From Acidimicrobiales bacterium (GTDB taxonomy: Bacteria; Actinomycetota; Acidimicrobiia; Acidimicrobiales; SHLQ01): a stretch of DNA of 64,000 bases. The notes under the pieces are model-generated. The model ran no database searches. It was not told where the DNA came from and worked only from the letters and a program-made list of their open reading frames with translations. The stretch is taken from assembly GCA_020629635.1 (NCBI GenBank), contig JAHDCX010000014.1, forward strand, positions 62,001 to 126,000, read 5' to 3'. This document shows, piece by piece, positions 31,500 through 51,230 of the stretch; positions within the stretch are counted from its first letter, which is position 1, and the number at the start of each line of letters is the position of its first letter. The position numbers and the translations under genes are program-made.

Positions 31500-32282
31500 G
31501 TGACCGGAATTGTGTCCACGGGACGTGGCATCGTCACGCCGCAGGGCGTGATCCTCGACCTGCAGGCGGCTGGGGTCGGATCGCGCGGGATGGCTCGGGT
31601 CATCGATCTGATGGTGTCGATCGTCGTGCTCGGTGCCGTGAGCGGCATCGGAAACCTCATTGGTGGTACCGGTGGACTCGTGTTTCAGCTGTTGTTCGGT
31701 TTCGGAGTCATCTTCGGCTATCCGCTGATCAGCGAGACATGGTTCCGGGGACGCACGCTCGGCAAGTGGGTGCTCGGCCTACGAGTCGTCACGCTCGAAG
31801 CCGGACCGATCGGGTTTCGAGAAGCCATGATTCGCTCGCTGTTCCAGCTGCTCGACATCCTGATGAGTCTCGGAACGGTGGCCCTGATCTGCGGAATGCT
31901 CACCAACCGAAGTCAGCGACTCGGCGACGTCGCTGCGGGCACCTTCGTCATCGAAGACCCGCGCACGACACGGCACATCCCGCCAATTCCCTTCACGCCA
32001 CCGATGGGCACCGAAGACCTCGTCGCCGACCTCGATGTGTCCCGGCTCACCCCCGCCCAAGAACGGGTCATCCGCTCATTCCTGCTTCGGGTCGGCGACC
32101 TGTCTGCAGATGCCCGGGTGGCACTCGCCGCAAACCTCGCAGCACGGACCGGGGAGGCGTTGGGGCATGATCGCCGACCCTTCATCAACGATGAGGTCTA
32201 CCTGGTCGCGGTCATGGCGGCGCGACAGCTCCGCGAAGGTGGCCTCGCTCAGCTCGCGATCGACTCGCCGACAACCACCTGA
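31500..32282 (+). CDS. RDD family membrane protein
   Basis: A 260-residue protein. The RDD domain spans about residues 20-150: GSRGMARVIDLMVSIVVLG carries the conserved Arg-Asp pair, RGRTLGKWVLGLRVV is the second signature and NRSQRLGDVAAGT the third, with three membrane helices. The C-terminal 110 residues are soluble and helical, ending RQLREGGLAQLAID. Role unknown; RDD proteins are proposed transporters or regulators. GTG 31500 is preferred to GTG 31494 because the TAGCGT box ends directly against the latter but is six bases from the former. Confidence 0.83.
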   Translation: MTGIVSTGRGIVTPQGVILDLQAAGVGSRGMARVIDLMVSIVVLGAVSGIGNLIGGTGGLVFQLLFGFGVIFGYPLISETWFRGRTLGKWVLGLRVVTLEAGPIGFREAMIRSLFQLLDILMSLGTVALICGMLTNRSQRLGDVAAGTFVIEDPRTTRHIPPIPFTPPMGTEDLVADLDVSRLTPAQERVIRSFLLRVGDLSADARVALAANLAARTGEALGHDRRPFINDEVYLVAVMAARQLREGGLAQLAIDSPTTT

Positions 32283-32315
32283 TTCGGCCACCGATCCGGG
32301 TCGGTGCGGGGTCGG

Positions 32316-32321
32316 TAACCT
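32316..32321 (+). promoter_or_regulatory. -10 element TAACCT, leaderless
   Basis: Seven bases before GTG 32329 of the cysteine desulfurase gene. Confidence 0.5.
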
Positions 32322-32328
32322 CGACAAC

Positions 32329-33456
32329 GTGTCCGCCTACCTCGATCACGCCGCATCGTCGCCGCTTCGTATCGAAGCGCTCGACGCGATGATGCCGTGG
32401 CTCGAACACCACGACGCACACGCCAACCCGACCGCGTCGCATCGCCGGGGTCGTCGGGCCCGTCAGGCGCTCGATGACGCGCGTGCGATCATCGCCGACT
32501 CCGTTGGTTGCGGGCGCGGTGACGTCGTCTTCACCGGCGGTGGGACGGAGTCCGACAACGTCGCTGTCGGCCGAGGACGTCCCCCCGGAGCGTTGGTCGT
32601 CGGCGCCACGGAGCATCCGGCTGTGCTCGAACCGGCGCAGCGCCAAGGGGCGAAGGTCGCCCCCGTGAATGACGCGGGCATCGTGGATGCCGACACCGTC
32701 GAACCGCTCCTCGACGACACCACGGAGTTGGTCTCAGTGATGACCGTCAACAACGAAACCGGGGTCATCCAGCCGATCCGCGAGATTGCCGAGGTGGTTC
32801 GCCGCCGGACGAATGCGCTGGTCCACACCGATGCGGTCCAGGCGCTTCCGTGGCTCGACCTCGCGGTGCACGCTCCGGCGGACCTCCTCTCGGTGACCGG
32901 TCACAAACTGGGTGGCCCGCAAGGAGTCGGTGCACTCGTGATACGCAACGGATCAGATGTCGAACCGCTCCTCGTGGGGGGAGGCCAGGAACGGGACCGG
33001 CGCGCCGGCACCCAGAACGTCGCCGGCATCGTCGGTTTCGCCGCCGCCGTCCAAGCCTCGGCCGACGACCGCGCTGAACGTCTCGCCCGTATCGACGCCC
33101 TCGCCACCGCGCTGCTCGACGGGGTGACCGAGGCGATCTCTGGGGTCGAGCGCACCGTCTCGCGCGACGTTCGGGTCCCCGGCATCATTCACCTCACGAT
33201 CGACGGCGTGCAGAGCGAACCGCTGCTCTTCCTGCTCGACGACGCAGACCTGGCGTGCTCCGCCGCGTCCTCGTGTGCGTCGGGGGCGCAGGGTGCTTCC
33301 CACGTCCTTTCGGCGATGGGCCTCGACACCGCCAACTGCGCGCCGCTCCGGCTCTCGCTCGGATGGTCGACGACCGAGGCCGAGATCGATGAAGCGATCC
33401 AGACCCTCACACAGGCGGTCACGACGCTTCGAGAACGGGCGGCGGTCCATGGCTGA
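32329..33456 (+). CDS. cysteine desulfurase (IscS/NifS family)
   Basis: A 375-residue fold-type I PLP enzyme that takes sulfur from cysteine as a persulfide. The N-terminus AYLDHAASSPL, the PLP lysine Lys193 in VTGHKLGGPQGVG, and the persulfide cysteine Cys316 in SSCASGA are present. Its gene overlaps mnmA by eight bases, so the likely main role is sulfur delivery for tRNA 2-thiouridine; it may also serve the NifU-like protein at 19568. GTG 32329 lies seven bases after TAACCT. Confidence 0.93.
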   Translation: MSAYLDHAASSPLRIEALDAMMPWLEHHDAHANPTASHRRGRRARQALDDARAIIADSVGCGRGDVVFTGGGTESDNVAVGRGRPPGALVVGATEHPAVLEPAQRQGAKVAPVNDAGIVDADTVEPLLDDTTELVSVMTVNNETGVIQPIREIAEVVRRRTNALVHTDAVQALPWLDLAVHAPADLLSVTGHKLGGPQGVGALVIRNGSDVEPLLVGGGQERDRRAGTQNVAGIVGFAAAVQASADDRAERLARIDALATALLDGVTEAISGVERTVSRDVRVPGIIHLTIDGVQSEPLLFLLDDADLACSAASSCASGAQGASHVLSAMGLDTANCAPLRLSLGWSTTEAEIDEAIQTLTQAVTTLRERAAVHG

Positions 33457-34498
33457 ACGGGTACTCGTCGCAATGTCAGGCGGCGTCGACTCGTCCGTGG
33501 CGGCCGCCCTCATGGTCGAGGCCGGCCACGAGGTCGTCGGCGTCACCATGAAGTTGTGGGGAGGTGAGTCGGACTCGGGCTGCTGCTCCGTCTCCGACGT
33601 CGACGACGCCCGGTGGGTGGCCGCCCAGCTCGACATCGAACACCACGTGTTCAACTTCGGCGAAGAGTTCCTCGAACACGTCGTCCAACCCTTCGTGACC
33701 ACCCATCGCTCCGGTGGCACTCCCAACCCGTGCATCGAGTGCAACCGGCACATCAAGTTCGATCTCTTCCTCGATCGGGCGCGGGTGCTCGGCTTCGAAC
33801 GGATCGTGACCGGGCACTACGCCCGAATCGTCACGACCGCAGACGGGTCGCGTCGGCTGGCGAGAGGGGTGGATCATGCCAAGGACCAGAGCTACGTCCT
33901 GCACATGCTCGACCAGGCTGCGCTCGCCCGGACGATCCTTCCGGTGGGGGAGTGGACCAAACCGGATCTCCGCGACGCGGCGCACGCCCGCGGGCTGCTC
34001 ACCGCGGCCAAGCCCGATTCCCAGGACGTCTGCTTCATCACGAAGTCGGGAGGGCGAGAGTCCTTTCTTCGAGACCGTGGAGGGCTGACCCCTGGTCGGA
34101 TCGTCGACGCAGCAGGGCGCGAAGTCGGGACGGTCGAATCGACCGAGCTGGTCACGATCGGGCAGCGCAAAGGCCTCAATGTGTCGGGGATGTCCGAACC
34201 CCAGTTCGTGGTCGACGTCGACCGCACGGAATCCGTGGTGACGATCGGGCCGCGTCGAGACCTCCGTGTCGAGGAGTCCCGGTTTGTCGATCCGGTTTGG
34301 GCGAACCTCGGCCACACGGGTCCGGCGCTCGTCCAGGCGAGCGCCCACGGCGAGGCGTTGCCGGCGGTTGTTCACGGCGATCGTGTGGTGTGGGACCAAC
34401 CGAGAGATCGGGTCGCGCCGGGCCAGTCACTCGTGTTCTACGAGGCGGCGCCGGCGCTCGCCGATCAGACGATCATCGGTGGAGCGATCGCCACCTGA
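33449..34498 (+). CDS. mnmA: tRNA-specific 2-thiouridylase
   Basis: A 349-residue enzyme that thiolates U34 of Glu, Gln and Lys tRNAs, using ATP and persulfide sulfur. The PP-loop is SGGVDSS near residues 10-16. The catalytic cysteines are Cys98 in NPCIECNRHIKF (aligned with the NPD-x-x-C-N of other MnmA) and Cys195 in DVCFI. An extra Cys95 sits in the same motif. The adenylate-recognition region GHYAR is present, and the C-terminal beta-barrel is complete. The ATG lies inside the end of the desulfurase gene, giving translational coupling with its presumed sulfur donor. No TusA-E relay is visible here. Confidence 0.95.
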   Translation: MAERVLVAMSGGVDSSVAAALMVEAGHEVVGVTMKLWGGESDSGCCSVSDVDDARWVAAQLDIEHHVFNFGEEFLEHVVQPFVTTHRSGGTPNPCIECNRHIKFDLFLDRARVLGFERIVTGHYARIVTTADGSRRLARGVDHAKDQSYVLHMLDQAALARTILPVGEWTKPDLRDAAHARGLLTAAKPDSQDVCFITKSGGRESFLRDRGGLTPGRIVDAAGREVGTVESTELVTIGQRKGLNVSGMSEPQFVVDVDRTESVVTIGPRRDLRVEESRFVDPVWANLGHTGPALVQASAHGEALPAVVHGDRVVWDQPRDRVAPGQSLVFYEAAPALADQTIIGGAIAT

Positions 34499-34515: not shown

Positions 34516-35871
34516 TCAGGCGAGCGCGGAGAGGATTTCGTCGATCTCGGCCGTGGTCGTTCGAGGGTTGACGAAACAGAACCGGAAGATCGGCGCTCGA
34601 TCGAGCCGAGACGGCGTCACGAACGCCAGACCCGCCTCCAACGTGGCTTCAGTCCACGCCTGGTATTCCTCCGCGGTCCAGCCGATCCGTCGGAAGGCGA
34701 CGACCGACAGCGACGGCTCGTGGGCCAGCTCCACGTAGTCGAGCCGGGAGATTGCGTCTGCAGCGTAGGCGGCCAGGTCGAGGGTGATGTCGACCGCCTC
34801 GGCGTACGCATCGGTGCCATGCGTGGCCAGCGAGAACCAGAAGGGCAGTCCGCGGACCCGGCGCGTGAGGTGAATGGCGAAGTCGCTCGGGTTCCAGTCG
34901 CCGTACGCATCGAGAAAGGCGAGGTAGCCGGCGTGTTGGGCGTGAATCGCCCGAGCAGCGTCGGGATCGCGGTAGAGAAGCGCACAACAGTCGAACGGGG
35001 CGAAGAGCCACTTGTGCGGATCGACGATGAAGGAGTCCGCATGTTCGAGGCCCGCGAAGAGCGGCCGTGTGCGTTCGGTCGCGAGGGCCGCTCCGCCGTA
35101 CGCTCCGTCGACATGGAGCCAGATGTCGGCTGCTCGACACACGGGTCCGAGCGTGGCGAGGTCGTCGACGACGCCGAGGTTGGTGGTGCCCGAGGTGGCG
35201 ACGACGCCGCACACCCGGTCGCCGTGCTCGGCGAGGGCTCGCTCGACCGCAGGCCCGGCGAGGCGACGCTGCTCGTCGGTCTCCACGGCGATCACGTCGG
35301 CGCCCATCACCTGGGCAGCTGCCTTCACGGACGAGTGCGCTTCGGCGGAAACGAGAAACGCCCACGGGCTGCCGGGATCGGGACGGGTCGTCTGCGCCGA
35401 ATGACGGGCGGCCACCATGGCGGCGAGGTTGCCGATCGTCCCCCCGGGCACGAACACGCCGCCGGTTCCTTCGGGCATCCCGGCGATCGAGCGGACCCAA
35501 TCGAGCGCCTGGTTCTCGGCCCAGATGGCACCCGACCCCTCGAGCCACGAGCCGCCGTAGATCGAGCAGGCGCCGACGACGAGGTCGAACAACACGGCGG
35601 CCTCGGTCGGGGCCGCCGGTACGAACGACAGGTACTTCGTGTAGTCGACCGACAGTGACGCCGGCTCGAGCACGTCGGCGAACAGCTCGAGCGCTCGGGG
35701 GCCGCCGATCCCGTCTGCGGTGATCGTCTGTCCGCAGATCGAGTCGAGCTCTTCGGAAGTTCGTGGCGCGTTGAGTGGAATCGGATCGAGACGGGTTCGG
35801 GCCCGGGCGTACGCGATCACCTGCTCGGCGAGAGCGTCGGTCTCTTCGGTCCAGTCGTGCATCCCAGCCAT
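34516..35871 (-). CDS. PLP-dependent aromatic-L-amino-acid-decarboxylase-like protein
   Basis: A 451-residue group II decarboxylase. Landmarks are GGVFVPGGTIGNLAAM (phosphate binding), SAEAHSSVKAAA (ring-stacking His), WLHVDGAYGG (Asp pairing with the PLP nitrogen) and VDPHKWLFAPFDC (Schiff-base Lys). The family includes aromatic amino acid, tyrosine, diaminobutyrate and glutamate decarboxylases; the substrate is not determined. The gene is last in a three-gene minus-strand operon after the GlnX-like sensor and a PotD-like binding lipoprotein, with one base between stop and start. This suggests a link to amino acid or polyamine supply. Start ATG 35871; ATG 35862 is possible. Confidence 0.88.
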   Translation of the reverse strand: MAGMHDWTEETDALAEQVIAYARARTRLDPIPLNAPRTSEELDSICGQTITADGIGGPRALELFADVLEPASLSVDYTKYLSFVPAAPTEAAVLFDLVVGACSIYGGSWLEGSGAIWAENQALDWVRSIAGMPEGTGGVFVPGGTIGNLAAMVAARHSAQTTRPDPGSPWAFLVSAEAHSSVKAAAQVMGADVIAVETDEQRRLAGPAVERALAEHGDRVCGVVATSGTTNLGVVDDLATLGPVCRAADIWLHVDGAYGGAALATERTRPLFAGLEHADSFIVDPHKWLFAPFDCCALLYRDPDAARAIHAQHAGYLAFLDAYGDWNPSDFAIHLTRRVRGLPFWFSLATHGTDAYAEAVDITLDLAAYAADAISRLDYVELAHEPSLSVVAFRRIGWTAEEYQAWTEATLEAGLAFVTPSRLDRAPIFRFCFVNPRTTTAEIDEILSALA

Positions 35872-35872
35872 C

Positions 35873-37003
35873 TCAGCCGGCGCCCACGACGTCGAAGAGC
35901 AGCTCGAACTGGACGTCGATGGCGTCCTCGGCGTCTTCGTCCATCGTCCCCCACGTGATCAACTTGTTGCGGGTCGAGTCGTCGGGGAACACGAAGCGGT
36001 TCTCTGCCAGCCCGCTGCTGTTTCGTTCCGCCTCCGCCTGGACGCCGAGGACGGGGGTCACGTACTGGACCCAATCGGCGATGGCGACGGCGTTCGATGG
36101 CTCGTACACCCAGTTCATCCACGCGGCAGCCGCTCGAACGTTCGGTGCCCCACGCGGGATCACCATCGTGTCGAACCAGAAGATCGCGCCTTCGTCGGGG
36201 ATGACGAACTCGAGATCCGGGCGCTGGTCGATCATCCCGACGGCGTTTCCGGACCAGGCCATCGAGGCAGCGATCTGGCCAGCTTCGAGGAGGTCGACGA
36301 AATCGTCGAAGACAAGTGCCGTGATCTGGCCGGACTCCACGGCCCGTTCGATCGTCGCCAGCCCGGCCGCGGCGGTCGCCGGTGTGGGTCTCGAGGGGTC
36401 GTCGCCATTGGCCAACATGCCAAAGCCGACCGCCTCGCGCATCTCGCCGATCAAGGCGACGCGGCCCCGGAGGTCGGCTCGGAACAACAGGTCCTCGATC
36501 GACGTGAGACCGCCCGTCTGGGCGGGGTCGTGTGCGATACCGGTGATGCCGGCCTGCCAGGGCATCTGGAACCGGGATCCACGATCCCAATCGTTCGTGG
36601 CGAAGACGGGGTCGATGTTGACGTGGTTCGGGATGAACTCGAGCGGGAGCGGCTCCGCGGCACCGGCGCGGATCATTCGTGCCGCAAGCCAGTTGGTCGG
36701 CGTGATGACGTCGAACGTCGGCATGAGCCCGGGATCGGCGAGAAGCGGTTTGATGAACGTCTCGAAGCCGCTGATGTTGTCCTCGTAGGTCTCCTGGTAG
36801 TCGAGACGGATGCCAGTGTCGGCTTCGAAGGAAGCGAGGAGATCGAGGTCGAAGTATTCGGGCCAGTTGACCACCCGAAGCTGATCGAGCTGGCCAGAAA
36901 CGGTGAGATCGCGTTGAACGCCGCAGCCGGCGGCGAGTCCGAGCGCCGTGACCGAGGCGCCTTGAAGGATCGAACGTCGGCTGAGCGTGCGTGGAGGAGT
37001 CAT
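35873..37003 (-). CDS. PotD/PotF-like polyamine-type substrate-binding Tat lipoprotein
   Basis: A 376-residue extracytoplasmic binding protein of the spermidine/putrescine (PotD) type. A Tat signal SRRSILQGASVTALG leads to lipobox LAAGC with Cys27. The mature start LRVVNWPEYFDLDLLASFE is the PotD/PotF opening, and FDVITPTNW, AITGIAHDPAQTGG-like and AIFWFDTMVIPRGAPN segments follow. No permease or ATPase gene is beside it. Instead it lies between a four-helix membrane sensor and a decarboxylase, so it may serve as a receptor rather than a transporter part, as GlnH does for GlnX in mycobacteria. Start ATG 37003, ten bases after the sensor's stop. Confidence 0.85.
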   Translation of the reverse strand: MTPPRTLSRRSILQGASVTALGLAAGCGVQRDLTVSGQLDQLRVVNWPEYFDLDLLASFEADTGIRLDYQETYEDNISGFETFIKPLLADPGLMPTFDVITPTNWLAARMIRAGAAEPLPLEFIPNHVNIDPVFATNDWDRGSRFQMPWQAGITGIAHDPAQTGGLTSIEDLLFRADLRGRVALIGEMREAVGFGMLANGDDPSRPTPATAAAGLATIERAVESGQITALVFDDFVDLLEAGQIAASMAWSGNAVGMIDQRPDLEFVIPDEGAIFWFDTMVIPRGAPNVRAAAAWMNWVYEPSNAVAIADWVQYVTPVLGVQAEAERNSSGLAENRFVFPDDSTRNKLITWGTMDEDAEDAIDVQFELLFDVVGAG

Positions 37004-37013
37004 GGGTGCCGTC

Positions 37014-38204
37014 TCAGTAGTACTCGTTGATGCGGGGCTGATAGCCAGCAAGCGCGGCGGCACTCGCCGCCAATGCCAGAAGAATCGAACCGATGAACAG
37101 CCACGCCGAACGGCGCGAGGCAGACTCGACCGCCGCGTCGAACTGATCGCGGTTCTCGAGGAGCGCGGCTTCCAGCGACGTCGTGAATCCCGTGAAGTCC
37201 GTCGTCGTCCCGTCGCCGAGAACGAATCGGTCCCATCGGGTGCGCAGCGACTGGGCGGCAGCGGCTTCACGTTCGTTGTCCGACGCGGCGAGGAGACCGT
37301 CGATCTGATCGGTGACCTGAGAGGCGAGCTCTCGTCGTGCGCCGTCGCCAAAGGACTGTGCCCCGACACGAGCCGCAGCGTCGCGGGTCTTGAACTCGAA
37401 CCCGACCCGTTGGATCTCTGCGGTCGTCTCGATCGCTTGGTAGCCGTCATCGCGTGCGGACTGGAGATCGACCGCTCGTCCGGCCGCAGCGAGGAGCAAC
37501 CACACCCCGAGCGCGATCACGAGCACGGTTGAGAACAGAAGCCCGAGGTTGAAGCGCCGGCGAGTTCGTGCGGCGAGCGACCGTTGAGCGATGACGAGGC
37601 CGATCACCGTGATGATGAGCAGCACGACAGCGATGCCGGTCGGGATCAGGCCGGCACTGATGTCGCCGTCGAGGCGGGCGGTCGCCGTCTCGGAAACGGC
37701 AGCCGCGTTGTCGATCATTCCTCCGTCTCCGCCGACGAAATCGATCGCCCGTGCGAGCTCGGCGACATCGTCGCCGACACCGTCGAGGGTGCCCTCGACG
37801 GACGCCGCATAGGTGATGAGATCGCCGCCGATCGCTTCGAGACGTTCGTGGTCGTCGGTGTCTTCGATCGGGGTTCGGGCGGCGAGACGCTCGATCTGGC
37901 GGGCGGCTCGGTCCATTGCCGTCTCGTAGGCGAGGCGGCTCTGGCGGTCTCCCGTTTCCCCGGCGAGGAACACCGACGTGTTCGATGCGTCGGCTTCGGC
38001 GAGGCTGGCGATCAGTTCCTGAGACCCGATCAGGAGCGGGCCCGTGCTGTCGCGAATGGAGTCGGTCGCGGATCCCATCCGGACGGCGGCGATGGCGCTG
38101 AACGTCCCGGACAGTGCGATGAGCGCGACGAGGGCGACCGACCAGGTGCGCAGGCGGGCGGGTGGGGAGTACAGGCGTTCGGGCGACAGAAAGGGCCGTG
38201 TCAC
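37014..38204 (-). CDS. GlnX-like four-helix membrane sensor
   Basis: A 396-residue membrane protein without a catalytic domain. A first helix (WSVALVALIALSGTFSAIAAV) leads to an extracytoplasmic helical bundle of about 130 residues that resembles chemoreceptor four-helix ligand domains (SATDSIRDSTGPLLIGSQELIA). A second and third helix (LIPTGIAVVLLIITVIGLVIA and FSTVLVIALGVWLLLAAA) flank a short Arg-rich cytoplasmic loop. A second bundle and a fourth helix close the protein. This twin-bundle plan is that of mycobacterial GlnX, which passes a signal from a binding lipoprotein to PknG. The genes for a binding lipoprotein and PknG are indeed here. GTG 38204 is seven bases from TACAGT. Confidence 0.7.
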   Translation of the reverse strand: MTRPFLSPERLYSPPARLRTWSVALVALIALSGTFSAIAAVRMGSATDSIRDSTGPLLIGSQELIASLAEADASNTSVFLAGETGDRQSRLAYETAMDRAARQIERLAARTPIEDTDDHERLEAIGGDLITYAASVEGTLDGVGDDVAELARAIDFVGGDGGMIDNAAAVSETATARLDGDISAGLIPTGIAVVLLIITVIGLVIAQRSLAARTRRRFNLGLLFSTVLVIALGVWLLLAAAGRAVDLQSARDDGYQAIETTAEIQRVGFEFKTRDAAARVGAQSFGDGARRELASQVTDQIDGLLAASDNEREAAAAQSLRTRWDRFVLGDGTTTDFTGFTTSLEAALLENRDQFDAAVESASRRSAWLFIGSILLALAASAAALAGYQPRINEYY

Positions 38205-38211
38205 GGCGCCC

Positions 38212-38230
38212 ACTGTAGGTGCGCCATGCT
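38212..38230. promoter_or_regulatory. divergent promoters of the PknG signalling island
   Basis: TACAGT (38212-38217, minus) is seven bases from GTG 38204 of the sensor gene. CATGCT (38225-38230, plus) is six bases from ATG 38237. The two arms of the island are therefore started from one 32-bp region. Confidence 0.45.
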
Positions 38231-38236
38231 GGTGGG

Positions 38237-39421
38237 ATGGACGACGCCCAGATCGCCCACAAGCTCGTCCAGCTACGCGCCGCCGAATCGCGCATCGCCG
38301 AGGACCTGCTCCAACTCGACGAACACCCGACGTACACGCTGCTCGTTGCGGGGGACATGGCGGGCACGACCGGGCGCAGGGTGAACGCAATCATGGCGGA
38401 CGCGCCCTTGCTGTGGACGTGGCTTGGCTCGCTACGAACCCACCTCGATCGGGCGGACGCACTCCGCAACGAGGACCGAGGCTGGTTCTCGGGCCCCCGA
38501 ACCGACGTCGGCGAACTCCTGGTCGGACGCACGCTGGAGCTGAACCGGGCGACGGTTCCGGCTCGTTTGACTCCCCCGGGTGTGTCGGTCGATGCCGATG
38601 GCACGCTGCGTGTGACGCCGGACGAGTGCATTGGGCTGATTCGCCAAATCCGCGAGCCCGTCCGGCGAGCGGTCGCTGACGTGGATGCGGTGTGGAGCGA
38701 TCTGATTCCGCGTCTGGAGGCTGCCGAGACATCGCTCAGGCACGCCGAAGCTGTCGCGGAGCGACTGGCGATGGATGTCCCGGAGTTGGTCCCTGCTCGC
38801 CAACGCCTCGAGGCCGTGCGGGCGTCGGTTGTCGAAGACCCCTTGGGTCTTGCCTCGTCGGTCGGGCGTGATCTGGATTCGCTCGTGGCCAGGGCGGCCG
38901 CCAAGGTCGGGTCGGTCGAGCGCGCGCATGATTCGTTGTCCAGCGACGTTGCACGCGCCGAGGGGCTGGTGACCGAGTTGCGGGCTTTGCGGGCACGTGC
39001 GGCTGCGTCGTGGTCCGAGGCCAACGCCAAGGTTCGACCGGCTTGTCGTCTCGTCCGTGTGCCGTCCGCCGCGGCCATCGACGGGCCCAACGGGCTCGCG
39101 CACCGGCTCGCGGCGATCGTCGACGAGAATCGTGACTGGCGCGACGCCCGAGCCGAACTCGATCGGTGGCTCACCTCGGCCGGGAGACTCCGCGCACAAC
39201 TCGAACGCTCGGTCGCCTCGAATCGCGCGCCGCTGGAGCGACGCGACGAGCTCCGCGGGCTCTGGCGGGCGTACGCTGCCAAGCTGGCGACGATCCCCGA
39301 ACCCCGTCGCCAGGCGCTGCAGGAGCTCGGCGATCAGATCCATCACGAGCTGCATCGGACGCCGACCGATCTGGCTCGAGTCGAATCGCTGCTCGAGGAG
39401 TTCGTCACGTCATCGAGGTGA
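38237..39421 (+). CDS. long helical protein of the PknG island
   Basis: A 394-residue, almost wholly alpha-helical soluble protein with heptad-like stretches (for instance AERLAMDVPELVPARQRLE, AKVGSVERAHDSLSSDVAR). It has no membrane helix and no recognised catalytic domain. It opens the plus-strand arm ahead of PknG, 20 bp upstream. By position it could be a scaffold or adaptor between sensor and kinase; this is inference. ATG 38237 is preceded by CATGCT at six bases. Confidence 0.55.
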   Translation: MDDAQIAHKLVQLRAAESRIAEDLLQLDEHPTYTLLVAGDMAGTTGRRVNAIMADAPLLWTWLGSLRTHLDRADALRNEDRGWFSGPRTDVGELLVGRTLELNRATVPARLTPPGVSVDADGTLRVTPDECIGLIRQIREPVRRAVADVDAVWSDLIPRLEAAETSLRHAEAVAERLAMDVPELVPARQRLEAVRASVVEDPLGLASSVGRDLDSLVARAAAKVGSVERAHDSLSSDVARAEGLVTELRALRARAAASWSEANAKVRPACRLVRVPSAAAIDGPNGLAHRLAAIVDENRDWRDARAELDRWLTSAGRLRAQLERSVASNRAPLERRDELRGLWRAYAAKLATIPEPRRQALQELGDQIHHELHRTPTDLARVESLLEEFVTSSR

Positions 39422-39428
39422 CCGCCGC

Positions 39429-39434
39429 TACTGT
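39429..39434 (+). promoter_or_regulatory. -10 element TACTGT, leaderless start of pknG
   Basis: Seven bases before GTG 39442. It gives the kinase its own internal promoter inside the arm. Confidence 0.45.
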
Positions 39435-39441
39435 GCACGTC

Positions 39442-41874
39442 GTGGCGAACTGCACCGAAATCGGCTGCGACGGCAGCTACACCGCCGACGGGTACTGCGA
39501 CACCTGCGGAATGGCGAGACGGGCGACGTCGTCGACGACGACCCCCGCCGCCACCAATTCACCCGCAGCCCCACCGCCACCGCTGGCTGCAGCCGCAACC
39601 GGCTCGTGCCCCGACGCCACCTGTACTGGCTCGATCGCAGCCGACGGGTATTGCGACACCTGCGGACTCGAGGGTGGTGCGGCGATGCGCACCGGGGCCA
39701 TTGCGCAGCCAGACCCGTCGGGCCCGATCGTCGAGCCGACGATTGCGGCCCCGGCGGCCCCCACGACGTCTCGACGCTTGAACCCGGCCGGTGGCTCAGG
39801 CGTCACGCGGCGAACGAGCTCCACCGGACGAGCCGTCGGTTCGGGTCTCGGTGCCGGGCTGGTCTCGGTCCCACCGACGACTGCAGGCGACCCGGCAGCT
39901 GCGGTCATGTCGCAGGAGAAGATCGCGGCCGTGCTCGGGGAGAAGCCCGAAGACGAGCGCTTCTGCTCCGCATGTGGGCAACCGGTGGGGAGAGCCAGCG
40001 GCGACAAGCCAGGCCGCGTCACTGGTTTTTGTTCCAACTGCCGGACGCCGTTCGACTTCGTGACGAACATGCCGTCGCTGAGTGCGGGAGAGCTGGTCGG
40101 TGGCCAATACGAGATTCTCGGTCCGATCGCCCACGGCGGCATGGGCTGGATCTACCTCGGTCGTGACCGCGCCGTCTCGAACCGATGGGTCGTGCTGAAG
40201 GGGCTCCTGAACGAGGACGACCCCGACGCGGTCGCGTCGGCGGTCGCCGAGCGACAGTTCCTCGCCCGCATCGAGCACGGAAGCATCGTCAACATCTACA
40301 ACTTCGTCACCTGGCGAGGCGCCGGGTACATCGTGATGGAGTTCGTCGGTGGGCAATCGCTCAACTCGAAGCTCAAGGACCGACGTCGTTCGAACGGAGG
40401 GACGCCCGACCCGCTGCCGCTGACCGATGCGATCGCCTACATGCTCGGCGTCCTGCCGGCGATCGGCTACCTCCACGAGCAGGGGCTCGTCTACAACGAC
40501 CTCAAGCCGGCCAACATGATGGCGGTCGGTGACGGCGTGAAGCTGATCGACGTCGGCGGGGTCATGGCCGCAGACGATCAGGCCGCCGCGATCTTCGGGA
40601 CCCAGGGGTTCCAGGCTCCGGAGGTCGCCGAGGTCGGACCGTCGGTTGCGTCCGACCTCTTCACGGTCGGGCGAACCTTGGCCGTGCTCACGCTGAACTT
40701 CGTGTACCACCAGGGTCCGTACCTCCACACGCTGCCACCGGTCGGCGACCAGCCCGTATTCGGTCGGTTCGAGTCCTTCCATCGATTCCTGTTGAAGGCG
40801 ACGGCGCCTCATCCCGACGACCGTTTCCAGTCCGCCGACGCCATGGCGGAGCAGCTGACCGGTGTGCTTCGCGAAGTCGTGGCGATCTCCACCGGTTCTC
40901 CCAAGCCCACCGTTTCCAGCCATTTCAGCGGCGACCGGTTGGCCGCGCGACTGCTCGACGACGAGTCCGATGGGGGCCCAGACTGGCGAACGCTGCCCGT
41001 TCCGTCGGTCGACCCGAACGATCAGGCCGCGCCATTCCTGGCCGACCTGGCCGAGGACGAACCCCCATTGGTGCTGAGTGCCATCGCCGCCGCCCGCCGA
41101 GAGGGGCTCATCGAGGCGACGCAGGAAGTCCGATTCCAGATGGTCGCCGCCCTGGCGGCGACAGGGCAGGACGCATCCGAGGTGCTTCGAGAAGCGGCGG
41201 AACACGACCCGTGGGACTGGCGTCTGCGCTGGTACCGAGGCCTGCTCGGCCTCCGGATCGCGAAACCTGCCGAGGCGGCAGAGGACTTCAGCGCCGTCTG
41301 GACCGAGCTTCCCGGCGAACTCGCGCCGAAGGTCGCCGTCGGCCTGGCCGCGGAGCTCGCCGGTGAGTTCGATCGAGCCGCCGAAGTGTACGGAGAGGTG
41401 ATTGCGGTGGATCCGAGCTTTGTTTCGGCAGCGTTCGGCCTCGCCCGGTGTCGGAGCGCGGCCGGCGATCGTCGTGGCGCCGTGGATGCCTACCTCGCCG
41501 TGCCGGAGAGTTCTGCTGCCTACACCGAGGCCCGAGTCGCATCGGCGCGAGCGCTCGTGGACACGGTCGTCAGCAAACCGAGCGCCGACGACGTGCACGC
41601 CGCCGCGGCGACCATTGAGTCGGCCAGGCTGGACGCCGCCGCAGAGTCGCTTCTGGCGGCGGAGGTCCTCGAAGGGGCACTCGTCGCGATCGAAGCCGGT
41701 GCGTTGGCCGAGGACCCCCAGGTCCGTGTCTTCGATCAGCCGATGACGGCCAACGGACTTCGATCGGCGCTCGAACGAACGTATCGGGCCCTCGCTCGTG
41801 TGGCGTCGACGCCCGAAGAGCAGTTCGCCCTGGTCGACAAGGCCAACGCCGTCCGGGTCCCGAGTCTGTTCTGA
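39442..41874 (+). CDS. pknG: PknG-type serine/threonine protein kinase with three zinc ribbons
   Basis: An 810-residue soluble kinase. Two short N-terminal ribbons (CTEIGCDGSYTADGYCDTCG type, from residue 4 and about residue 57) precede a rubredoxin-like ribbon with FCSACG and FCSNC (about 173-200). The kinase domain starts near 215 with GPIAHGGMGWIYLG. It has Lys253, the PknG-type YNDLKP catalytic loop instead of HRD (Asp353, Lys355), DVG in place of DFG (Asp370) and FQAPE (Glu394). A TPR-rich C-terminus follows. YND and FQAPE are PknG hallmarks. In mycobacteria PknG phosphorylates the FHA protein GarA to steer glutamate and TCA-cycle flux; an FHA gene closes this operon. The two additional ribbons are not in mycobacterial PknG. 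GTG 39442 follows TACTGT by seven bases. Confidence 0.93.
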   Translation: MANCTEIGCDGSYTADGYCDTCGMARRATSSTTTPAATNSPAAPPPPLAAAATGSCPDATCTGSIAADGYCDTCGLEGGAAMRTGAIAQPDPSGPIVEPTIAAPAAPTTSRRLNPAGGSGVTRRTSSTGRAVGSGLGAGLVSVPPTTAGDPAAAVMSQEKIAAVLGEKPEDERFCSACGQPVGRASGDKPGRVTGFCSNCRTPFDFVTNMPSLSAGELVGGQYEILGPIAHGGMGWIYLGRDRAVSNRWVVLKGLLNEDDPDAVASAVAERQFLARIEHGSIVNIYNFVTWRGAGYIVMEFVGGQSLNSKLKDRRRSNGGTPDPLPLTDAIAYMLGVLPAIGYLHEQGLVYNDLKPANMMAVGDGVKLIDVGGVMAADDQAAAIFGTQGFQAPEVAEVGPSVASDLFTVGRTLAVLTLNFVYHQGPYLHTLPPVGDQPVFGRFESFHRFLLKATAPHPDDRFQSADAMAEQLTGVLREVVAISTGSPKPTVSSHFSGDRLAARLLDDESDGGPDWRTLPVPSVDPNDQAAPFLADLAEDEPPLVLSAIAAARREGLIEATQEVRFQMVAALAATGQDASEVLREAAEHDPWDWRLRWYRGLLGLRIAKPAEAAEDFSAVWTELPGELAPKVAVGLAAELAGEFDRAAEVYGEVIAVDPSFVSAAFGLARCRSAAGDRRGAVDAYLAVPESSAAYTEARVASARALVDTVVSKPSADDVHAAAATIESARLDAAAESLLAAEVLEGALVAIEAGALAEDPQVRVFDQPMTANGLRSALERTYRALARVASTPEEQFALVDKANAVRVPSLF

Positions 41875-41886
41875 GTTGATGAGTCG

Positions 41887-42834
41887 GTGACGATGTTGGT
41901 GTGTCCCGCGTGCGGCGAGGAAGCTGCGTCCGACCAGGCGACCTGGTGTGAGGCCTGTGGCGCCGACCTCGGCGGCTCGGTCGGCGCCGTCGGCGGTCCC
42001 TCGTGCGTCGAATGCGGAGCCTCGTCGGACCTGATCATGGATGGCTTCTGTGGTCAGTGTGGCCGCAAGCAACCCGGGCCTCGTGACCACCTGGCCGAAG
42101 CGCTCGACGGCGTGGCCGCAGTGACCGACAAGGGCCTGCGCCACCACCACAACGAGGATGCGTTTGCCATCGGTGTTGTCGAGCAGGGCTGGGTCGCCGT
42201 CGTCTGCGATGGCGTCTCGAGCACCGACCACTCCGATGACGCTTCTCAAGGCGCGGCGGACGCAGCGCGGGATCGGCTCGTCGGCGACCTCGCAGGAATC
42301 GACGTCGGCGACGCCGCTTCCCTGGAGGCGGCGATGGTGGCCGCGGTTGATGCCGCGCAGGCCGCGGCGGCGCGCGTGGAGTATGTGGAGGACGGCCGAG
42401 GACCCGCGTCGACGACCATCGTTTCGGCAGCGCTCCTTCAGACCACGGACGGATTTCGTTCTGTCGTCGGATGGCTTGGCGACAGTCGCGCCTACTGGGT
42501 CGACGCCGACGAGACGGTGCAGCTCACAGTGGACGACGAGATCGATGGCAGCATCAGTCGGTGGCTCGGCCGCGATGCGGGCGACGTGACGCCCTCGGTG
42601 CACATCGCCGATCATCCGGCCAATCGCGCAGAACGCGGACGCCGGCACCTTCTCGTCTGCACGGACGGACTCTGGCGTTACGCCGACACCACCGATGCCA
42701 TGGAACAGTTGGTCGCCGACTCTGCAGGGGAGAACGTTGATCCTGCGGGCCTGGCGGAATCGCTCGTGGACCATGCAGTGGAGGCCGGCGGACACGACAA
42801 CGTGACCGTCGCGGTCATCGCTGCTGCTCGCTAA
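41887..42834 (+). CDS. zinc-ribbon PP2C protein phosphatase
   Basis: A 315-residue protein. The N-terminal 65 residues hold two zinc ribbons (CPACG and CEACG; CVECG and CGQCG). The rest is a PP2C phosphatase with NEDAF (residues 89-93), VVCDGVSS (Asp108, Gly109), GDSRAYW, CTDGLW and HDNVTV, so the metal-binding aspartates are complete. It should reverse phosphorylation by the PknG encoded 12 bp upstream. The start is GTG 41887 or ATG 41893; no TANNNT box is present, consistent with read-through from pknG. Confidence 0.92.
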   Translation: MTMLVCPACGEEAASDQATWCEACGADLGGSVGAVGGPSCVECGASSDLIMDGFCGQCGRKQPGPRDHLAEALDGVAAVTDKGLRHHHNEDAFAIGVVEQGWVAVVCDGVSSTDHSDDASQGAADAARDRLVGDLAGIDVGDAASLEAAMVAAVDAAQAAAARVEYVEDGRGPASTTIVSAALLQTTDGFRSVVGWLGDSRAYWVDADETVQLTVDDEIDGSISRWLGRDAGDVTPSVHIADHPANRAERGRRHLLVCTDGLWRYADTTDAMEQLVADSAGENVDPAGLAESLVDHAVEAGGHDNVTVAVIAAAR

Positions 42835-42871
42835 CCAACGTCGCGAGGCGGCCGTCGGCAAGAATGCAGAC

Positions 42872-44152
42872 ATGACGAGTTTCGAGGCCAACGTCTTCCA
42901 GAACGAGTACCTTCTGCCCGGCGGTGAGGTCGTCGATGCCGTCGTCACGGTCACCGCGTTCGAGGGCACGGCAGTCGGTGCGGCCGCCGACGTCGTCGAG
43001 GTGATCGTCGTCGATGTCTCCGGCTCGATGAACGAGGACGGCGGATCCAAGATTCGAGCCGCCCGGACGGCGACCGCGGCCGCGATCGACGTGCTCCGCG
43101 ATGGCGTCAAGTTCGCGGTTGTCGCCGGCAACCACGAAGCCAAGGCGCTCTATCCGCCGCACGGTCGAGTCATCGAGGCTGACGACCGCAGTCGCGCCGA
43201 AGCCAAAGCGGCGGTCTCCCGAATCGTTGCCGACGGCGGTACGGCCATCGGATCGTGGCTCCGGGGGGCGCGTCGTCTTCTCGCCGACCATCGCGACTCG
43301 ATCGCTCACGTCATCTTGCTCACCGATGGTCGCAACGAACATGAAGAACCCTGGGAGCTCGACAAGGCGATCGCAGACTCGGTCGGCTTGTTCGAGTGTG
43401 ATTGCCGCGGGTTGGGTGCCAACTGGGAGGTCGACGAACTTCGGAAGATCTCCGACGCTCTGCTCGGCACGACGGACATCATTCCGCGCCCCGACCAGAT
43501 GGAGGCGGCGTTCCGCGAGCTCACCGAGCAGACGATGGCCAAGCAGGTCGCCAACGTCGGGCTCCGGCTGTGGACGCCGAAGGGGTCGACGATCGAGTTC
43601 GTCAAGCAGGTGGCGCCGACGCTCGAAGATCTGACGGACCGCCCCGTCGATGTCGACGCGCTGACACGGGACTTTCCGCTGGGCTCCTGGGGCGACGGTG
43701 AGACCCGTGACTACCACGTGCGGATCAGGGTTCCGACGGGAGCGATCGGCGACGAGCGGTTGGCGGCGCGTGTCATGCTCGCGGTCGGCGAGACGACGAT
43801 TCCCGTTGCGCTCGTCAAGGCGATCTGGACCAGCGACGAAGGGCTGTCGACTCGAATCAATCGGGAGGTCGCGCACTACACCGGCCAAGCAGAGCTCGCG
43901 GACGTCATCGCTGACGGACTTGCGGCTCGTGCCGGTGGCGACGATGCCACGGCGACGGTGAAACTCGGGAGGGCGGTCCAGCTGGCACACGAGGCTGGCA
44001 ACGACGACACCGTGAAGCTGCTCCAGAAGGTCGTTGACGTCGATGACCCGAAGACCGGAACCGTGCGGTTGCGCCGACAGGTAGAAGCCGTCGACGAGAT
44101 GGCGCTCGACGTGCGTTCGACCCGCACGGTCCGAGTCCAACGGAAGGGCTGA
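42872..44152 (+). CDS. von Willebrand factor A domain protein
   Basis: A 426-residue cytoplasmic protein. A short beta N-terminus is followed by a VWA domain with an intact MIDAS: DVSGSM (Asp48, Ser50, Ser52) and LLTDGRNEHEE. A C-terminal region of about 200 residues looks like a beta-sandwich followed by helices (GRAVQLAHEAGNDDTVKLLQKVVD). A VWA protein beside a PP2C phosphatase and a protein kinase recalls the TerY-P triad of tellurite and stress systems. AAGAAT lies six bases before the ATG. The stop is two bases before the FHA gene start. Confidence 0.88.
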   Translation: MTSFEANVFQNEYLLPGGEVVDAVVTVTAFEGTAVGAAADVVEVIVVDVSGSMNEDGGSKIRAARTATAAAIDVLRDGVKFAVVAGNHEAKALYPPHGRVIEADDRSRAEAKAAVSRIVADGGTAIGSWLRGARRLLADHRDSIAHVILLTDGRNEHEEPWELDKAIADSVGLFECDCRGLGANWEVDELRKISDALLGTTDIIPRPDQMEAAFRELTEQTMAKQVANVGLRLWTPKGSTIEFVKQVAPTLEDLTDRPVDVDALTRDFPLGSWGDGETRDYHVRIRVPTGAIGDERLAARVMLAVGETTIPVALVKAIWTSDEGLSTRINREVAHYTGQAELADVIADGLAARAGGDDATATVKLGRAVQLAHEAGNDDTVKLLQKVVDVDDPKTGTVRLRRQVEAVDEMALDVRSTRTVRVQRKG

Positions 44153-44154
44153 TC

Positions 44155-44823
44155 GTGGCCGTCATCTGCCCGAACGGACACGAGTCCGAATGGGACGACT
44201 ACTGCTCGGTGTGCGGCGTGGCGATCGCTGGCACTGCAGCCTCAAACCAATCACCAACACCAGACCCGCCCTCACCGCCGTCGGCGGGAGAGGGGGAAAT
44301 CTCCTGCGCCAACTGTGGAGAGCCGGCGAGCGAGACCGACGTGTTCTGCGAGAACTGCGGCTACGACTTCTTGTCCGGGAGTCTCCCGGACGTAGTCGAG
44401 ACGCCAGCCGAGCCATCAGCATCAGGCGCGGATCGGGTGCGTGTCTCGGTGGACCTGGCGTTCTTCGACCGGATGGGCTTCGAGGGCGTCGACCCGCCGT
44501 CGACGATTCCGGACCCGGTCGAGGTGGAGCTCCCGCCGACCGACATCCTCATCGGCCGAGCGAGCGAATCGCGTGGGACCTTTCCCGAGATCGACCTACA
44601 CGGGCTCTTCGAGGACGCGTCGGTCGAAGATCCGGCTGTGTCGTCGAGTCACGCACGGCTTCGCAAGAGCGGCGCCACGTGGACGATCACGGATCTCGGC
44701 TCCACCAACGGGACCTACGTCGACGGGGCGGACGATGCGATCCGCCCCGGAGAGCTCGTACCTGTGGCGCCGGGTGTGGTGATCAACGTCGGTGCGTGGA
44801 CTGCCATCACCCTCCTCGACTGA
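44155..44823 (+). CDS. zinc-ribbon FHA domain protein
   Basis: A 222-residue protein. Two N-terminal ribbons (CPNGHE with CSVCG; CANCG with CENCG, residues 5-68) are joined by a Pro/Ser/Glu linker to an FHA domain (about 130-222). The phosphothreonine-binding residues are present: Gly134-Arg135, Ser163-165 with His166, and Asn185-Gly186 in GSTNGTYVDG. A Thr83-Pro motif (VVETPAEP) before the domain could be a phosphosite, comparable in position to the ETTS site of GarA; that is inference. GTG 44155, two bases after the VWA stop, indicates co-translation. It is the probable read-out of the kinase. Confidence 0.88.
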   Translation: MAVICPNGHESEWDDYCSVCGVAIAGTAASNQSPTPDPPSPPSAGEGEISCANCGEPASETDVFCENCGYDFLSGSLPDVVETPAEPSASGADRVRVSVDLAFFDRMGFEGVDPPSTIPDPVEVELPPTDILIGRASESRGTFPEIDLHGLFEDASVEDPAVSSSHARLRKSGATWTITDLGSTNGTYVDGADDAIRPGELVPVAPGVVINVGAWTAITLLD

Positions 44824-44850: not shown

Positions 44851-47824
<2,974 letters not shown>

Positions 47825-49257: not shown

Positions 49258-49263
49258 GATTTC

Positions 49264-49313
49264 AGCGTAATGAGCGTGGGTGGCGCTGCATGGCCCGGGC
49301 GAGCGCGTACCGT
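49264..49313. promoter_or_regulatory. divergent leaderless promoters (TACGCT minus, TACCGT plus)
   Basis: TACGCT (49264-49269, minus) is six bases from ATG 49257. TACCGT (49308-49313, plus) is six bases from GTG 49320 of the PASTA kinase. Confidence 0.5.
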
Positions 49314-49319
49314 GGCGCT

Positions 49320-51230
49320 GTGCCGGCTGACACCACCACAAGTCCCGAGTCGAAAGGCGGTGCGCCCGCGCCCCACGTCGGCCGGATCCTCGGCGGCCGG
49401 TACGCGCTGATCGCCCGGGTCGGTGCGGGCTCGTCGGCGACGGTCTGGCGTGCTCGGGACTCGTCGCTCGATCGCGATGTGGCGTTGAAGACGCTCCATC
49501 CGGGGCTCTCCGGCGATGAGGGCTTCCTGTCCCGTTTCCGAAGCGAGGCAAAATCGGCCGCGTCGGTTTCGCACAATCATCTCCTGGCCGTGCACGACTG
49601 GGGCGAAGACGACGGTCAGCCGTATCTGGTCACCGAACTGCTCGAGGGTGGTTCGCTGCGTGCGCTTCTGGATCAGGGGCTGGTGCTGACGCCGTCACAG
49701 ACGATCCGCATCGGCCTCGAGGCGTGCCGAGGACTCCATCACGCCCATTCGGCCGGCTTGGTGCACCGAGACATCAAGCCCGCCAATCTGCTGTTCGGTC
49801 GAGACGGACACCTTCGGGTCGCGGACTTCGGCCTCGCCCGCGCCCTTGCCGACGCCGGTTGGACCGATCCGAGCGGAAACGAGCTCTCCGGCACCGCGCG
49901 GTACGCCTCGCCTGAGCAAGCTCTGGGGCATCGACTGAGTGCGGTCTCGGACGTCTACTCGCTCGGACTGGTGCTCATCGAGAGTCTCACCGGCTCCGTG
50001 CCCTTCGCATCGGACACGATCGGTGGTGCATTGGCGGCGCGTATCGACAACGACGTGCCGATCCCGGACGTGCCCGACAAGCTCGCGGACGCACTGCGCG
50101 CCATGACGCGACGGATGCCCGACGAGCGGCTCAGTGCCGCCAAGGCCGGTGTCGCCCTGCTTCAGGCGGCCGACGGGCTGCCGCGCCCCCAAGCGCTGCC
50201 GCTCGCCGGCCTGCCGAGGCCCTCTGCCGTCGCCGACGCTGCCGCCCGGACGCAGCTCGCCCCGCTCCCGGAGCAGACGCAGGTGGCGCCCACGCGTGCA
50301 GGCGAGGCGGGAGACGGCCCCGAACGACGCTGGCCGTGGCTCCTGGTCGTGACGGCGTTCCTCGCCGCTGCCGCATGGTTCGCCTTCACCCAGATCGACA
50401 CGTCGGCGCCTGCGCTCGCCACGGTCCCTGACGTCGTTGGTCTCGACCGCACCGCTGCGCTTGCCGAGCTGGGAGCTCCCTGGGTGCTCGAGGAGAAGTT
50501 CGACCGAGTGGATGGCGTCGCAACCGGACTCGTCATTCGGACCGACCCGCCGGCAGGTGAGACACTCGCCGAAGGCGAGTCACTCAGCTACTGGCTGTCG
50601 CTCGGTCCGCCGCTCGTTCGGGTGCCCGTCGACGACATGGTGGGACGAAGCCAGGAACAGGCGGCCCTGACCCTCGAGGATCTCGGTCTCGTGGTCGGCG
50701 AAGTCACACGCGTCAACGACGAAACCGTCGGGGCCGGTCTGGTCATGGCCGTCGAATCGTCGTCGCCCGAGCTGATCGCGGGTGCGTCGGTTGACTTGGT
50801 GGTGTCGAGCGGACCGAGCCTGCGTCAGGTTCTGCAGCCCGTTGCTGGCGCGCTTCCGGAGACCTACGTTGCGGACCTGCAAGGTCTCGGGCTCGGGGTC
50901 GACTTCGTCGAAGAGTTCAACGAGGAGGTCGACGCAGGCGGCTTCATCTCCATCGAGCCCGCACCTGGCACGCCGATCGAACGCGGAGGCCAGGTCCGGG
51001 TTGTGGTGTCGTTGGGTCCCGAGCCGGTGCCGGTGCCCGACACGTCCGGGCAGAGCCTTGGCGACGCGATCGACGAGATCGAGGCCTTGGGCTTCTTGCC
51101 CGGAGAGCTGCTCGGATCCAACAATGGCCGATGCTCGGTCGTGGGGACCGATCCGCCAGCGGGCACGCCACTCCAGCCGGGGAATCCGATCGACATCGTC
51201 CTGTCCGATTGTGGGCTCGGCGAGGACTGA
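49320..51230 (+). CDS. PknB-like serine/threonine kinase with PASTA domains
   Basis: A 636-residue receptor kinase. The cytoplasmic kinase domain has Lys57 (VALKTL), HRD with Asp151 in VHRDIKPANLL, DFG (VADFGLAR) and SPEQ. A membrane helix lies near 339-360 (WPWLLVVTAFLAAAAWFAF). Four extracytoplasmic PASTA-like repeats follow, the first opening VPDVVGLDRTAAL and the last VPDTSGQSLGDAI; the third is diverged. PASTA domains bind peptidoglycan fragments and these kinases control wall growth. No pbpA, rodA or PP2C gene is adjacent, unlike the usual pknB operon. GTG 49320, six bases after TACCGT, is chosen over a GTG/ATG ten codons upstream. Confidence 0.93.
   Translation: MPADTTTSPESKGGAPAPHVGRILGGRYALIARVGAGSSATVWRARDSSLDRDVALKTLHPGLSGDEGFLSRFRSEAKSAASVSHNHLLAVHDWGEDDGQPYLVTELLEGGSLRALLDQGLVLTPSQTIRIGLEACRGLHHAHSAGLVHRDIKPANLLFGRDGHLRVADFGLARALADAGWTDPSGNELSGTARYASPEQALGHRLSAVSDVYSLGLVLIESLTGSVPFASDTIGGALAARIDNDVPIPDVPDKLADALRAMTRRMPDERLSAAKAGVALLQAADGLPRPQALPLAGLPRPSAVADAAARTQLAPLPEQTQVAPTRAGEAGDGPERRWPWLLVVTAFLAAAAWFAFTQIDTSAPALATVPDVVGLDRTAALAELGAPWVLEEKFDRVDGVATGLVIRTDPPAGETLAEGESLSYWLSLGPPLVRVPVDDMVGRSQEQAALTLEDLGLVVGEVTRVNDETVGAGLVMAVESSSPELIAGASVDLVVSSGPSLRQVLQPVAGALPETYVADLQGLGLGVDFVEEFNEEVDAGGFISIEPAPGTPIERGGQVRVVVSLGPEPVPVPDTSGQSLGDAIDEIEALGFLPGELLGSNNGRCSVVGTDPPAGTPLQPGNPIDIVLSDCGLGED

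Follow-up and report, generated by a model that had tools for sequence, protein, structure and literature searches.

A stretch of 64,000 nucleotides from an Acidimicrobiales bacterium (assembly GCA_020629635.1, contig JAHDCX010000014.1, positions 62,001 to 126,000; hereafter the window, in whose numbering the features below are given) carries a gene cluster built around a homolog of the protein kinase PknG. The source genome has a size of 4.45 Mb and its nearest relatives are uncultured Acidimicrobiales. The cluster consists of eight genes in two divergent arms, and the strands and domains assigned to them in a preliminary description were all recovered at the claimed positions by Pfam and NCBIfam matches. 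The minus arm contains, in order of transcription, a GlnX-family membrane sensor with four transmembrane helices (NF058618, 37014-38204), a PotD-like substrate-binding lipoprotein (35873-37003; SBP_bac_8, NCBIfam PotD 90.7 bits, with an RR signal and a lipobox), and a group II pyridoxal phosphate-dependent decarboxylase of 451 amino acids (34516-35871; Pyridoxal_deC, 6.6e-55), with 10 and 1 bp between them. The plus arm encodes a helical protein of a conserved family without a Pfam model (38237-39421; open reading frame from GTG 38219, ATG 38237), PknG (39418-41874; two N-terminal zinc-ribbon motifs, rubredoxin, kinase, and TPR domains), a PP2C phosphatase with an N-terminal double zinc ribbon (41887-42834), a VWA protein (42872-44152; VWA and VWA_3_C) and a zinc-ribbon FHA protein that resembles ArnA (44155-44823). 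Gaps of 2-37 bp had been described for the plus arm, which holds for the last three (12, 37, and 2 bp), but the helical and PknG genes overlap by 4 bp. The two arms are separated by 32 bp (38205-38236), in agreement with the preliminary description, if the sensor starts at GTG 38204. This start is supported by a leaderless-type -10 element, TACAGT (38212-38217, minus strand), seven bases 5' of the GTG codon, which has a counterpart (TACGAT, read by eye) in related genomes. A leaderless glnX has also been reported for Corynebacterium glutamicum (glnX-glnH-pknG operon; PMC6069109, PMC9769921).

The conservation of this arrangement was analyzed in 80 loci from GTDB genomes found with the window PknG as query, 26 additional stretches from genomes of the same genus, family, class, and phylum, and eight more that surround relocated sensors and PknG loci. 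All reading frames of the collected loci were searched with profiles of the eight proteins of the window cluster. Ten stretches that duplicate GTDB loci were removed before counting (intergenic gap figures across loci still include them), resulting in 97 distinct PknG loci, 61 of which have full flanks. Five of the 61 were left out as mycobacteria-like, a label given to the loci with the highest PknG scores in the Pfam TPR model, which leaves 56 non-mycobacterial loci with full flanks. The helical, PP2C, VWA, and FHA genes are located beside PknG in 54 out of these 56 loci and share its strand with the exception of one PP2C gene, and a GlnX gene is additionally present in 48 out of 56. The order GlnX, substrate-binding protein, helical, PknG, PP2C, VWA, FHA was encountered again in Actinoplanes, Nocardioides, Cellulomonas, additional Acidimicrobiia, and three genomes of Streptomyces size, and GlnX is found at the end of the same block in one cyanobacterium and one Actinomadura. 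Most genomes of the window clade are metagenome-assembled. Among the cyanobacteria, Synechococcales C42_A2020_086 carries helical-PknG-PP2C-VWA-FHA-GlnX (L086, 8555-16972) and a second species has PknG without these neighbors (L074, Chamaesiphon).

Because the same neighbors recur in the same order across the Actinomycetota, the association is far beyond chance, and the shuffling of neighbors that would have spoken against a conserved unit was not seen. The plus arm of the eight-gene locus represents the usual, long version of PknG loci and is not peculiar to the genome of the window. Mycobacteria-like genomes contain GlnX-GlnH-PknG or PknG alone, and the helical gene was found nowhere in them. 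The window shares a GlnX with four transmembrane helices, a substrate-binding lipoprotein, and a PknG with TPR domain (and rubredoxin in mycobacteria) with the glnX-glnH-pknG operon of Mycobacterium and Corynebacterium (PMC6069109, PMC9769921), but differs in having a PotD-like protein instead of GlnH, an added decarboxylase, a divergent receptor arm, and the helical, PP2C, VWA, and FHA genes around PknG. The operon of these two genera is an abbreviated version of a more extensive one that is widely conserved. The combination had been considered undescribed and a merger of two themes; it is not a merger unique to this genome, and no description of the long operon, or of VWA, PP2C, TelA, or PotD together with PknG, was found in the open-licence literature, although a report in journals behind a subscription, or a record in annotation alone, may exist. 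The broad GlnX family model of NCBI already recognizes members from long operons. The PknG pathway itself is known; what appears to be new is its long operon, together with the swapped receptor and the two conserved tail motifs described below.

The minus arm is a receptor arm, as had been proposed, and it distinguishes the lineage. GlnH (SBP_bac_3) is located beside GlnX in 42 out of 58 loci in which GlnX and PknG are co-directional and in none of the 24 divergent loci, whereas the PotD-like protein is present in 22 of the 24 divergent loci and in no co-directional locus; the exceptions among the divergent loci lie at contig ends. The decarboxylase accompanies the PotD-like protein in 21 out of 22 divergent loci, and the remaining contig is cut at that end. 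In a tree of 85 GlnX proteins, all 23 PotD-type sensors and one from a truncated contig form a single clade with a support of 100/100. Furthermore, three genomes of the same order (G013, G016, and G431) contain the helical-PknG-PP2C-VWA-FHA block without an adjoining sensor and a GlnX-GlnH pair elsewhere in the genome, the contig of G017 ends inside the GlnH gene, and G014 carries the GlnX-PotD-decarboxylase unit approximately 12 kb away from the PknG block. The PknG proteins of relatives with a relocated receptor nest among the PotD-type PknG proteins (quick FastTree). Since the PknG blocks stay while GlnX-GlnH or GlnX-PotD units sit elsewhere and the PknG proteins nest together, the receptor unit was exchanged and the kinase block was kept. 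The replacement of GlnH by a PotD-like protein and a decarboxylase on a divergent arm is a feature peculiar to this clade of Acidimicrobiales; the preliminary description had noted the PotD-like lipoprotein without recognizing the swap as the main difference of the lineage. No adjoining substrate-binding protein was detected for GlnX in 16 loci, mostly of Propionibacteriaceae and Micropruina. In several loci of these two groups (L060, L064, L068, L081, L093, and others) GlnX lies immediately before the helical gene and is more divergent than anywhere else.

The substrate-binding protein of the window is an SBP_bac_8, PotD-like protein and not the amino acid-binding SBP_bac_3 GlnH of the GlnX-GlnH-PknG system, and it matches PotD and PotF structures. 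Among the residues that we take to line the pocket of Escherichia coli PotD, whose numbering is used, W34, Y37, R170, E171, W229, W255, and D257 are identical in 21/21 proteins of the clade and Y293 is kept in 20/21; the window protein is identical at 8 of 12 checked positions. Based on this pocket, the protein appears to be adapted to polyamines rather than amino acids. It shares the fold family and most pocket residues with PotD and PotF but is paired with a kinase receptor. Beside the PotD-type arm, neither PotABC transporter genes nor any gene family other than those described here showed up repeatedly, in maps with partial annotation of the neighbors and without a search for transporter genes farther away. 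The closest solved structures of the decarboxylase, 5o5c (desferrioxamine pathway) and 4obu, are tied at 160 bits and are amine-forming decarboxylases, and a connection of the amine that it forms with the ligand of the lipoprotein would be attractive. A different ligand, such as an amino acid, a small peptide, or a metal-amine complex, which the decarboxylase would remove or make, is considered rather unlikely: ligands vary within the PotD family, Y85 and D168 of E. coli PotD are replaced, and the closest solved relatives of the decarboxylase use lysine-like, aromatic, or acidic amino acids, but W34, Y37, E171, W229, W255, and D257 are kept in every clade protein, and the spermidine contacts in PotD include Glu171 and Asp257 (PMC4096761).

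The source genome encodes a single GlnX, which matches NF058618 with 161.6 bits (E = 3e-47), below the 250-bit cut-off of the family. Its AlphaFold2 model (pLDDT 94) consists of four transmembrane helices and two periplasmic helical domains; a comparison of the model with the PDB returned TTYH channels and PilJ at low TM-scores and was not informative. The best-conserved stretches of GlnX are the cytoplasmic loop between transmembrane helices 2 and 3 and the C-terminal tail (2.7-2.8 bits compared with a mean of 1.75). The tail follows the pattern R[LIRV]x[ED][YF] in 85/85 proteins irrespective of the substrate-binding protein, reads RINEY in the window (37020-37034, minus strand), and is also found in mycobacteria-like genomes. 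A similar tail occurs in a different context: two Streptomyces-sized genomes contain a second PknG-like locus (L138, 5783-12123, minus strand; L140, 8060-14294, plus strand) that encodes a PknG-like kinase, a VWA protein with a C-terminal zinc ribbon, a short membrane protein, and an SBP_bac_1-type lipoprotein. The short membrane proteins end in GYRPRLSEYR and AYRPRIDEYR, and NF058618 matches only the last 29 residues of one of the two (weak, E = 0.008). Since the periplasmic parts of GlnX vary with the substrate-binding protein, the tail and the loop are natural candidates for the contact with PknG, and the tail is a candidate for the motif that couples the receptor to the kinase. Communication between GlnX and PknG has been described as "still elusive" (PMC9769921).

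The presence of a kinase, a phosphatase, and an FHA reader in one operon, as claimed earlier, was confirmed with catalytic and binding residues intact. PknG matches the Pfam models PknG_rubred, Pkinase, and PknG_TPR and scores 455.9 bits against Mycobacterium tuberculosis PknG (2pzi). No other protein of the genome contains a PknG rubredoxin domain. The lysine, the catalytic Asp-Lys-Asn, and the DFG-like Asp are intact in 81/81 aligned PknG proteins. The metal site of PP2C is similarly conserved (N89, E90, D91, and D108 in 73/73; D260, D304, and N305 in 72), and the phosphothreonine-binding residues G134, R135, S163, and N185 of the FHA protein are present in 66/66. The helical protein has an AlphaFold2 pLDDT of 95 and forms an EzrA/spectrin-like bundle. 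It had no match in Pfam, NCBIfam, or PADLOC and none under 0.001 in Foldseek, its sequence profile returned coiled-coil noise only, and the best VIA-align score was Z = 9.6 for EzrA, at a level that is common for helical bundles. The protein is a probable scaffold.

The VWA protein matches 4FX5 over its full length (392 bits), of which it is an ortholog, and its metal-ion-dependent adhesion site is intact in 69/69 proteins. It ends in a near-invariant tail, MALDxRST[KR]TxR, represented in the window by MALDVRSTRTVR (44099-44134, plus strand). S416 and T419 are conserved in 77/77 and T417 in 76/77 of the proteins that reach the end, which makes the tail a candidate phospho-site for the FHA reader. 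The VWA profile matches chain A of 8S05, and the FHA profile finds chain C of 8S05 first and ArnA (5a8i) second, over both the zinc and FHA parts and well above GarA; 8S05 is inferred to be a complex of the ArnA-ArnB type. In Sulfolobus, the zinc-finger FHA protein ArnA binds only if the C-terminus of ArnB can be phosphorylated; two kinases and PP2A take part, the input comes from nutrients, and the relevant phospho-residue is not settled (PMC6509490). 4FX5 and the archaeal vWA2, a homolog of ArnB, share the vWA domain, a beta-sandwich, and a C-terminal four-helix bundle (PMC6509490). The window pair is similar in combining a zinc-finger FHA protein with a VWA protein that has a beta-sandwich and a C-terminal helix bundle (PMC6509490), but it is encoded together with PknG, PP2C, and a membrane receptor, and the sequence similarity of the VWA proteins is low. 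Control by Ser/Thr kinases and a phosphatase, with a link to nutrients, is known from the Sulfolobus system.

On these comparisons the VWA/FHA pair appears to resemble ArnA-ArnB more than the TerY-P triad to which the kinase-PP2C-VWA set had been assigned. That triad consists of a VWA protein, a PP2C phosphatase, and a Ser/Thr kinase with a C-terminal zinc ribbon (PMC11090510). The window also combines these three proteins with zinc ribbons and has its PP2C gene in the same operon, and TelA and AAA neighbors occur in some lineages: TelA, a small protein, and a SpoVK-like AAA ATPase are encoded directly upstream of GlnX in approximately 22 loci (e.g., L046, 2993-6608, and L153-L155) of Nocardioides, Cellulomonas, Micropruina, and some Acidimicrobiia, which links the PknG operon to Ter-type clusters. 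Membership in TerY-P was rejected, however, as the kinase is a PknG that ends in PknG_TPR and has its zinc sites at the N-terminus instead of a zinc ribbon at the C-terminus. The VWA protein is of the 4FX5 type and found no TerY by tblastn among 72,556 plasmids, and the FHA reader and the GlnX receptor are further differences. A role in anti-phage defence was likewise rejected after PADLOC returned generic kinase and phosphatase matches only. A variant of a Ter stress or defence module that responds to metal or nucleic acid and not to a nutrient could account for the zinc ribbons and for the TelA and AAA genes, but TelA is missing from the genome of the window and the receptor of GlnX and its substrate-binding protein faces outward; together with the TPR end of the kinase and the plasmid and PADLOC results, this makes such a module very improbable.

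An assignment of the operon FHA protein as GarA was also rejected, as its profile ranks 8S05 chain C and ArnA first. A better GarA/OdhI homolog of approximately 164 amino acids with an N-terminal zinc ribbon is encoded on another contig (C19, 108668-108859, minus strand, L098; 141.9 bits), and it reads EPTASIPV where GarA has ETTSVF. The genome also encodes a 2-oxoglutarate dehydrogenase of 1230 amino acids. In the canonical pathway PknG would phosphorylate GarA and thereby free 2-oxoglutarate dehydrogenase, with PP2C, VWA, and FHA as passengers or in another role. Homologs of both target proteins are present in the genome, and the mycobacteria-like genomes retain only GlnX-GlnH-PknG. The four extra genes nevertheless remain beside PknG with small gaps throughout the phylum and the GarA homolog lacks a plain ETTS motif, so that GarA as the sole output is considered unlikely. 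The two outputs are not mutually exclusive, and a metabolic branch through GarA likely exists in addition.

The locus had been called an island, a label that is loose: its G+C content equals that of the flanks, which gives no sign of recent acquisition, and the genes lie between an aminotransferase class V/mnmA pair (32035-34498) and a ligA-like gene (approximately 45413-47824). The neighbor on the ligA-like side is common to several close relatives. A further Hanks-type kinase reading frame is located 4.4 kb downstream (49260-51227, plus strand), scores 247 bits against the PknG profile over the kinase domain, and is also found in close relatives.

The cluster is interpreted, with moderate confidence, as a long-form actinobacterial PknG signaling locus with a swapped receptor that acts as follows. 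The PotD-like lipoprotein would bind an extracellular polyamine or a related amine and dock on the periplasmic domains of GlnX, which would relay its state across the membrane and engage PknG, probably at the TPR domain, through the invariant cytoplasmic loop and the RINEY tail. PknG would then phosphorylate the VWA protein at its conserved Ser/Thr tail, the phosphorylated form would be bound by the zinc-ribbon FHA protein, and PP2C would reverse the modification. A tail that is marked by PknG, read by FHA, and erased by PP2C would be the simplest reading of the plus arm. The helical protein would probably serve as a scaffold, and a second output would probably run through the GarA-KGD branch, whose genes lie in other parts of the genome. 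Several points weigh against this interpretation. The GTDB loci were picked by similarity to PknG and their frequencies lean to close relatives of the window PknG. With a GarA homolog and a 2-oxoglutarate dehydrogenase in the genome, PknG may act mainly on that branch. The kinship between the VWA protein and ArnB is weak in sequence (33 bits). Within the pocket of the lipoprotein, D168 is replaced by Glu in all clade proteins and Y85 by Trp in 20, and the putative ligand was assigned from pocket similarity at low overall identity.

A broader proposal, made tentatively and with less confidence than the interpretation of the window itself, is that substrate-binding protein, GlnX, and PknG form a modular receptor-kinase family in which exchangeable binding proteins of at least three types (GlnH-like, PotD-like, and SBP_bac_1-like) act on GlnX with a universal PknG-coupling tail. 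The main ancestral output of this family would be an ArnA-ArnB-like VWA/FHA switch that is erased by PP2C and was lost in mycobacteria. Most knowledge of PknG comes from Mycobacterium and Corynebacterium, whose operon contains no dedicated phosphatase or reader. Through the natural receptor swap, the input of the PknG pathway can be told apart from its output, and the tail motifs of GlnX and VWA turn the coupling of receptor and kinase and the target of the kinase into single-mutant questions. If the proposed scheme is true, the locus would represent, in this lineage of Acidimicrobiales, the first case known to us of extracellular polyamines being sensed by a Ser/Thr kinase pathway.

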